Below, in pieces: positions 15,135 to 16,006 of a stretch of DNA of 29,996 bases. The notes below the pieces were generated by a model. That model saw only the letters and a program-made list of their open reading frames with translations, had not been told where the DNA came from and did not search any database. How positions within the stretch are numbered: the stretch's first letter is position 1; each line of letters opens with the position of its first letter. The translations under genes were made by a program, and so were the position numbers. This DNA is from a virus. The stretch covers positions 1-29,996 of the IMG/VR virus record IMGVR_UViG_3300043410_000435. One strand, written 5' to 3'.

Positions 15135-15352
15135 AAGTGTGGACCAGAGTTAGCGACCTCTGCCCACCGCCAATAAGCACAGTATTGATACTGTCTCTAC
15201 AAAGGTTCATAGAGCCAACGCCCAGGTTCCTAACGCTGCTTCGGGTCTAGCGGATAGTTTTGCGTTGACCATTGATCTACAATATCTTTAACTATCAAAC
15301 GAATAGACGTTTACGAAGGTCTATCAGCCTCCTAGGAGTGCGACTCCTATTG
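15135..15352 (-). ncRNA. Hairpin-rich tRNA spacer S1 (candidate structured RNA)
   Basis: 218 bases between tRNA-Thr and tRNA-Glu contain no convincing gene but a dense series of perfect stems: CAGAG/CTCTG (15145-15162), ACAGTA/TACTGT (15179-15194), CAACGC/GCGTTG (15216-15267), GATAGTT/AACTATC (15253-15296), ATAGAC/GTCTAT (15303-15324) and TAGGAGT/ACTCCTA (15333-15349). The third and fourth stems interleave, as in an H-type pseudoknot. It must be transcribed with the flanking tRNAs. I know no RNA family that matches. Confidence 0.45.
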
Positions 15353-15424
15353 AGCCTCGTGTCAGGATTGAACTGACGACCTATCGCTTACAAGGCGATT
15401 GCTCTACCACTGAGCTAACAAGGC
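15353..15424 (-). tRNA. tRNA-Thr (TGT)
   Basis: Acceptor GCCTTGT/ACGAGGC, D stem GCTC/GAGC, anticodon stem ATCGC/GCGAT with loop CTTGTAA (anticodon TGT), T arm GTCAG TTCAATC CTGAC, discriminator T. Confidence 0.94.
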
Positions 15425-15479
15425 ATTGGTTACATCATCGGCGTTTCCAGATAATAGGAAGGTCAACGGTGTAACACTG
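15425..15479 (-). ncRNA. tRNA spacer S2 with hairpin
   Basis: 55 bases between tRNA-Asp and tRNA-Thr. GTTACA pairs with TGTAAC across the spacer, and TTCC with GGAA inside it, giving a stem with an internal loop. No gene is seen. Confidence 0.35.
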
Positions 15480-15552
15480 CGTCCCCGATGGGATTTGAAC
15501 CCACGATCCCCTGGCTGACAACCAGGTGCTTTAACCACTAAGCCACGGAGAC
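15480..15552 (-). tRNA. tRNA-Asp (GTC)
   Basis: Acceptor GTCTCCG/CGGGGAC, D stem GCTT/AAGC, anticodon stem CCTGG/CCAGG with loop TTGTCAG (anticodon GTC), T loop TTCAAAT, discriminator G. Confidence 0.94.
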
Positions 15553-15745
15553 TTGTTGTGATGCGTAGATAACCAATCTACCATCACCGACTCTATACTT
15601 TTTACACACCCACGAGTAGTGGCACTGTTGTGAGTCTCCTACCCACTATGGGCTTTTGTCTGCCCCTAATCTTTTCTACGGATTCATAGCATTCCGTCTA
15701 GTGAGTCGCACTAGCACCTGTTCTGAGAGTAGTTAATTCTCATTG
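15553..15745 (-). ncRNA. Hairpin-rich tRNA spacer S3 (candidate structured RNA)
   Basis: 193 bases between tRNA-Gly and tRNA-Asp with no credible ORF. Stems in order: GTGATG-GTAGAT/ATCTAC-CATCAC (15558-15587, 12 bp with one bulged C), CCAC/GTGG (15610-15622), CCCA/TGGG (15642-15652) or the competing GGGC/GCCC (15650-15665), ACGGA/TCCGT (15678-15697), CTAGTG/CACTAG (15698-15714) and TGAGA/TCTCA (15724-15742). The near-continuous run of hairpins suggests a folded RNA. Confidence 0.45.
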
Positions 15746-15816
15746 AGCGAATAGGGAGAATCGAACTCCCATAATCTGCTTGGAAGGCAGAAGTTTTACC
15801 ACTAAACTATATTCGC
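15746..15816 (-). tRNA. tRNA-Gly (TCC)
   Basis: Acceptor GCGAATA/TATTCGC, D arm GTTTAGTGGTAAAAC, anticodon stem TCTGC/GCAGA with loop CTTCCAA (anticodon TCC), T arm GGGAG TTCGATT CTCCC, discriminator T. Confidence 0.95.
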
Positions 15817-16006
15817 AAATGTGAGTAGGTGGAATGCTTTTTACCACCAGTGCCTAGTCAATTCGGTTCTCAGTAGATCCGCTTTGAGCACACCTGACGT
15901 TTGTCCGCTAAGACGATACGCTAATATCCGCCAGTGCCTTATCCTCCCCATTTGACTTTGAGGATTATTCAGCCATACTCCAGAGCAACCGTCGCCACTC
16001 TGTTTG
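15817..16006 (-). ncRNA. tRNA spacer S4 with hairpins and a repeat
   Basis: 190 bases between tRNA-Asn and tRNA-Gly. Stems are GGTGG/CCACC (15828-15848), ATCCTC/GAGGAT (15941-15965) and CAGAG/CTCTG (15981-16002); the last resembles the stem at 15145-15162 in S1. A 12-base direct repeat (CC(A/G)CCAGTGCCT) occurs at 15844 and 15928. A 36-codon ORF (15841-15951) lacks a ribosome-binding site and is probably chance. Confidence 0.4.

Follow-up and report, generated by a model that had tools for sequence, protein, structure and literature searches.

Structured non-coding RNAs within the tRNA clusters of phages are already known from T4, in which RNA C (species 1) and RNA D (species 2) have been seen by Northern blot and are described as being 'of yet unknown functions' (PMC9697503). 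In the T4 cluster, tRNA-Arg is followed after 1 nt by the start of RNA D and then by RNA C. Other large non-coding RNAs of phages, GOLLD and ROOL, are often located near tRNA islands, and their function is unknown (PMC12286853). A further RNA of relevance here is manA, which both Rfam and the original description file as a cis-regulatory element and possible riboswitch that is often found in 5' UTRs (PMC2864571).

Here, three structured RNAs (S1, S3 and S4) are described that lie between the tRNA genes of a viral array in IMG/VR record IMGVR_UViG_3300043410_000435, of which the stretch of 29,996 nt analysed is referred to as the window. Like RNA C and RNA D, which are 119–139 nt long, they are structured non-coding RNAs in a phage tRNA cluster and abut tRNAs, but the T4 RNAs form an adjacent pair downstream of the last tRNA whereas those of the window are placed between tRNAs. 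In contrast to S1, S3 and S4, GOLLD and ROOL measure ~600–800 nt or more, and no Rfam match to either was obtained in this locus. RNA C and RNA D are thus the nearest precedent and GOLLD and ROOL a looser parallel; the T4 locus (L340) has no match to the covariance models R1 or R2. What is new with respect to T4 are two RNA families and the pattern of their exchange. The reading favoured here, to which we assign a probability of roughly 0.7, is that S1, S3 and S4 are separate RNA genes that would be freed by tRNA maturation, would act in trans and are exchanged between phages as cassettes.

The tRNA array and its spacers

On the minus strand, the array reads Asn, S4 (189 nt), Gly, S3 (192 nt), Asp, S2 (54 nt), Thr, S1 (217 nt) and Glu. 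A putative promoter of sigma-70 type (TTGACA-17-TATAAT, 16092–16120, minus strand) located just upstream of tRNA-Asn(gtt) (16006–16078) matches the consensus at 12 of 12 positions, a sequence-only reading of this DNA having likewise called it a consensus promoter, and the sequence upstream of it is alike in the related arrays L003 (86%) and L005 (81%). Behind tRNA-Asn follow, all on the same strand, the spacer containing S4 (15817–16005), tRNA-Gly(tcc) (15745–15816), S3 (15553–15744), tRNA-Asp(gtc) (15479–15552), the hairpin spacer S2 (15425–15478), tRNA-Thr(tgt) (15352–15424), S1 (15135–15351) and tRNA-Glu(ttc) (15062–15134), these tRNAs being identified by both ARAGORN and Rfam. The lengths given earlier for S1, S3 and S4 (218, 193 and 190) are one base off the ARAGORN values, and the remaining tRNAs are closely spaced as had been noted, with gaps that are mostly 0–5 nt. 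No credible ORF is present in the three spacers, also in agreement with that reading, as the minus-strand ORFs are all small and extend over tRNAs or conserved structure. The minus strand of the array shows no terminator-like site.

Several further features accompany the array. An apparent gap of 89 nt at 14122–14210 is explained by a tRNA-Ser (14126–14210, minus strand) that ARAGORN misses; visual inspection shows a class II tRNA (anticodon TGA), and in Rfam it matches only tRNA-Sec, with 42.5 bits and thus below the cut-off of 47. Another perfect TTGACA-17-TATAAT promoter (16355–16383, minus strand) lies ~260 bases upstream of the array promoter and precedes a small ORF. The 210-nt spacer between tRNA-Glu and tRNA-Trp, S0 (14852–15061, minus strand), which like S2 was no part of the earlier finding, contains a promoter-like element (TTGCAC-17-TACAAT), a ribosome site (AGGAGG) and, within an inverted repeat right before tRNA-Trp, an ORF of 19 codons (MKQRFSQLSHAPIYRAWSI). 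A similar layout with a different short peptide (MKSIAKSYQRSSLAYSWQSASLQQSI) is present in L182, and S0 may serve as a leader-peptide switch that governs the array's second half. The terminase of the virus is nearest to that of Stanwilliamsviridae of Streptomyces (~54% identity), and the host is therefore probably an actinobacterium.

The spacers had been singled out as hairpin-rich. By folding energy alone, however, the excess of structure is mixed and not decisive, with z-scores of -1.0 for S1, -2.5 for S3 and -3.2 for S4, and both S0 (-4.1) and S2 (-3.65) go beyond S1, which is ordinary by this measure and for which the measure is uninformative. The excess over chance appears clearly when sequences are compared, in homologues with compensatory changes, and on these the description of the spacers as structured stands. 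The perfect 12-bp stem reported in S3 does have its 12 pairs, but one bulged base interrupts it.

Homologues of S4, S1 and S3

S4 (15999–15818, minus strand) matches the manA model RF01745 over its full length (model positions 1–192) with 64.4 bits against a cut-off of 55.2 and an E-value of 1.9e-14 (cmscan, Rfam 15). This match adds S4 to an established family, at a site where that family was not expected. It shares with manA RNAs the 5' hairpin, the closing helix, the CUGAAUAA...UAAGG core and the 3' hairpin, but it sits between tRNA-Asn and tRNA-Gly with no protein gene behind it, a difference that bears on the functional label of the family and not on membership. Among 11 manA RNAs of the S4 type, 92.5% of the cells are paired and 23 of the 59 pairs are doubly changed; the cells with double changes number 68 vs 21.7 in shuffles, and none of the 500 shuffles reaches the observed level.

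The gaps in which manA RNAs occur are not the same from phage to phage and include Asn|Gly, Met|Lys, Leu|Asn and, with a sub-threshold match, Gln|Trp. The Leu|Asn gap is that of Synechococcus phage S-CREM1, in which the RNA recognised by the Rfam manA model starts 1 nt after tRNA-Leu and has been treated as cis-regulatory (PMC9964418). In Rhodococcus phage Francesca, manA lies flush between tRNAs (3 and 1 nt from their ends), in L212 the match ends 1 nt before tRNA-Asp, and the Gln|Trp gap of Streptomyces phage Blueeyedbeauty holds the sub-threshold match (45.2 bits, E 1e-11), the manA-like RNA being located at 65412–65569. The flush position in S-CREM1, Francesca and Blueeyedbeauty argues against a purely cis-regulatory role, and since the gene downstream of manA in arrays is a tRNA of varying identity (Gly, Asp, Lys, Asn, Thr and Trp among them), a free RNA fits better than a leader. 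Prochlorococcus phages, in line with the original description, carry manA flanked by protein genes; no tRNA adjoins it, and tRNA processing therefore cannot release it at least there. In a motif sample taken without regard to tRNAs, 6 of 16 loci judged to be of manA type had a tRNA no more than 1.5 kb away. The occurrences in arrays suggest that manA is at least partly a free tRNA-array RNA besides being a leader. The first manA motif scan returned mostly chance matches, from which loci were retained only if inspection by eye showed the complete motif; in 396 Actinomycetota genomes, a single weak sub-threshold manA match was found, with no tRNAs nearby.

The manA core in the form TGGCTGAATAA...TAAGGCA also occurs inside otherwise different RNAs of up to ~300 nt in the tRNA arrays of varied phages (L239, L241, L254, L296, L309 and L312), of which L239 and L254 score sub-threshold with the manA model. 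A scan for this core gave 116 loci, 33 of which showed either the 3' hairpin of manA or a tRNA at a distance of up to 1.5 kb. The shared core may mark a larger superfamily that extends beyond manA.

S1 and S3 have no match among the 4227 models of Rfam 15, including manA and the tRNA models, at E-values up to 10 with permissive filters, and blastn against 50,697 phage records returned none for either even at E 1. The earlier statement that no RNA family matches thus stands for S1 and S3 but fails for S4, which exceeds the manA cut-off. Homologues of S1 and S3 came only from scans of IMG/VR with neighbouring proteins (lysin and PA14-domain neighbours) and with motifs and models. For S1, ten homologous loci were found, namely L182, eight from the motif scan and L262 from a covariance model. 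The homologue in L182 is 69.6% identical over 227 columns and occupies an Asp|Thr gap, while that of the window lies in Thr|Glu; Asn|Trp is the third gap in which the family is seen. In an alignment of ten sequences (A4) with a hand-set structure of 48 pairs, 98.8% of the cells are paired and 12 of the 48 pairs are doubly changed, compared with 4.0 in shuffles (0 of 500 as high) and a maximum of 4 in controls with a slid partner strand. A 29-nt block of S1 (GCGTTGGCTCTATGAACCTTTGTAGAGAC) is invariant across members whose overall identity is 70%. Regarding details of the S1 fold, the helix 20–24/33–37 proposed by RNAalifold never varies, and the competing helix 28–33/44–49 was preferred for its double change. 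An S1 pattern scan of genome contigs gave two matches, both by chance.

For S3, five homologues were identified in IMG/VR, three by similarity and motif (L035, L220 and L217) and two by covariance model R2 (L302, E 2e-24; L203, E 3e-11). They are distributed with that of the window over the gaps Gly|Asp, Asn|Asp, Asn|Gly, Asn|Met and Trp|Gly. With six sequences only, 9 of 23 pairs are doubly changed, a number as high as which none of 500 shuffles yields. Compensatory changes in S1, S3 and S4 thus exceed all 500 shuffles and all slid controls, to be read with the provisos that the shuffles keep shared ancestry and that the sequences tested had in part also guided the choice of structures. On this comparative evidence, S1 and S3 are two new RNA families absent from Rfam. 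The single undescribed element that had been proposed for the three spacers gives way to three different RNA families, whereas the proposal that structured RNAs are embedded, and conserved, in a tRNA transcription unit is borne out for all of them by homologues with compensatory changes, the check in relatives (same tRNA order, spacer alignment and covariation) being positive for S1, S3 and S4. No credible homologue of S2 was found.

Exchange between related phages

The closest relative of the array is L003, whose Gly, Asp, Thr and Glu tRNAs are 95.9–100% identical to those of the window, whose following tRNAs are nearly all 93–100% identical and whose S0 is 98.6% identical. Nevertheless, L003 has no counterparts of S1, S2, S3 or S4; three of the gaps hold other sequences, of 163, 78 and 166 nt, and the fourth a tRNA-Cys. 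In L005 the order of the tRNAs is identical and the gaps are 0–3 nt, without any spacer RNA. Related arrays provided 125 distinct gaps, of which 57 measure 10 nt or less, only 2 measure 11–45 nt, 47 measure 46–250 nt and 19 are longer. Because gap lengths are nearly all-or-none, the spacers look like whole units that are gained and lost and not like drifting sequence. Spacers that differ freely between close relatives and lack compensatory changes had been named as an observation that would speak against conserved RNAs; L003 does hold other RNAs in the same gaps, but compensatory changes are present in homologues. Comparison of these arrays shows relatives gaining, losing and exchanging the RNAs as units between near-identical tRNAs, likely by crossover within the tRNAs. 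The literature searched, which covered few subscription papers, gave no description of several RNA families being exchanged in this way between near-identical tRNAs.

The families also occur together, in the orders Asn|S1|Trp|S3|Gly (L203), Asn|S3|Met|manA|Gly (L302) and manA|Asp|S1|Thr (L262). Two further families without Rfam match were observed in these arrays, X (L003:4576-4738, L045:6401-6564 and L046:6324-6653) and Y (L035:6719-6884, L042:2992-3150, L046:6729-6899 and also L036), both in varying tRNA gaps. Atypical tRNA-like genes that ARAGORN misses and that score 41–46 bits in Rfam (L046:6487-6553, L193:10145-10211, L207:2164-2230 and L208:8170-8237) have short anticodon arms and odd loops (such as ..GGC TTGATCA GCC..) and repeatedly adjoin manA, S1 and other array RNAs.

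Proposed release and mode of action

All homologues of S1 and S3 lie beside tRNA genes, and in nearly every member the ends of the RNA are 0–6 nt from tRNA ends. The first S1 and S3 members were cut at tRNA ends, but matches of the models to uncut sequence give the same ends, at 0 and 1 nt in L262, 0 and 0 nt in L302 and -1 and -1 nt in L203. In L197, L198 and L211 the RNA stops short of the next tRNA, and in L217 the S3-type RNA does not abut tRNAs, which counts against release. From these ends and the precedent of RNA C and RNA D we infer that the RNAs are most simply explained as products released when the tRNAs are processed; the earlier statement that they must be excised as free RNAs is too strong. 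S4, S3 and S1 would be co-transcribed with the tRNAs from the promoter at 16120–16092, and cleavage by RNase P at the 5' end of the next tRNA together with 3'-end processing of the previous one would set free a folded RNA of ~180–215 nt.

An alternative in which the RNAs remain part of the precursor and, acting in cis, regulate how the downstream tRNAs are transcribed, folded or processed is unlikely, although it agrees with the filing of manA as cis-regulatory. It could also draw on the fact that 20 of 41 distinct spacers of 60–230 nt open with a hairpin directly behind the tRNA, compared with 6.8 in dinucleotide shuffles (maximum 13), since such a hairpin could aid processing. Against it stand the arrays that manage without spacers, such as that of L005, the lack of a terminator on the transcribed strand and the variation among phages of the tRNA that follows one and the same family, as seen for manA. 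Because the downstream gene is a tRNA of varying identity, S1, S3 and S4 most likely act in trans and not as leaders of one gene. The likeliest targets may be translation or host defence during infection, although this is weakly indicated; as to antisense pairing with genes of the window, the longest perfect complement is 10–12 nt, the same as for shuffled sequences.

Still less probable is that the spacers are selfish or inert inserts, either decayed tRNAs or small mobile RNA elements, that are passively carried in recombination-prone arrays. Their presence and absence and their changes of gap do resemble the behaviour of a mobile element, but base pairs preserved through double changes and the S1 block that stays unchanged at 70% overall identity are at odds with inert sequence, and no ORF and no match to tRNA models even at E 10 is present in S1, S3 or S4. 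Y RNAs that bind Ro occur in some bacteria and phages, and a Ro (TROVE) protein is encoded in three Streptomyces relatives, in Blueeyedbeauty soon after the tRNA cluster, but an identity of the spacer RNAs with Y RNAs is very improbable given that no TROVE gene is found in the window or in any S1 or S3 record, many of them fragments, and that YrlA matches merely overlap tRNAs, far under the cut-off.

With S1, S3 and S4 taken as released, trans-acting RNAs, a more general and tentative proposal, which we hold to be somewhat less probable than even, is that tRNA arrays serve as exchange islands in which tRNAs would act both as release signals and as recombination sites for unrelated families of trans-acting RNAs (manA, S1, S3 and at least two more), probably meeting differences in host or defence. 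The swapping pattern also hints that selection favours large tRNA arrays in phages for reasons besides codon usage. Since cultured phages share the arrangement (Gln|manA-like|Trp in Blueeyedbeauty and Leu|manA|Asn in S-CREM1), the role of stable tRNA-cluster RNAs is directly testable.

The Ro/TROVE genes of Stanwilliamsviridae are those of Blueeyedbeauty (L343, 68050–69666), NootNoot and Gilson, and the tRNA cluster of Blueeyedbeauty also has several spacers of 70–290 nt. Finally, tmRNA occurs near these RNAs in L217 (9054–9406, minus strand, 139.6 bits), and in L074 (2722–3144, minus strand) one region matches both permuted tmRNA (120.9 bits) and alpha-tmRNA (116.1 bits).
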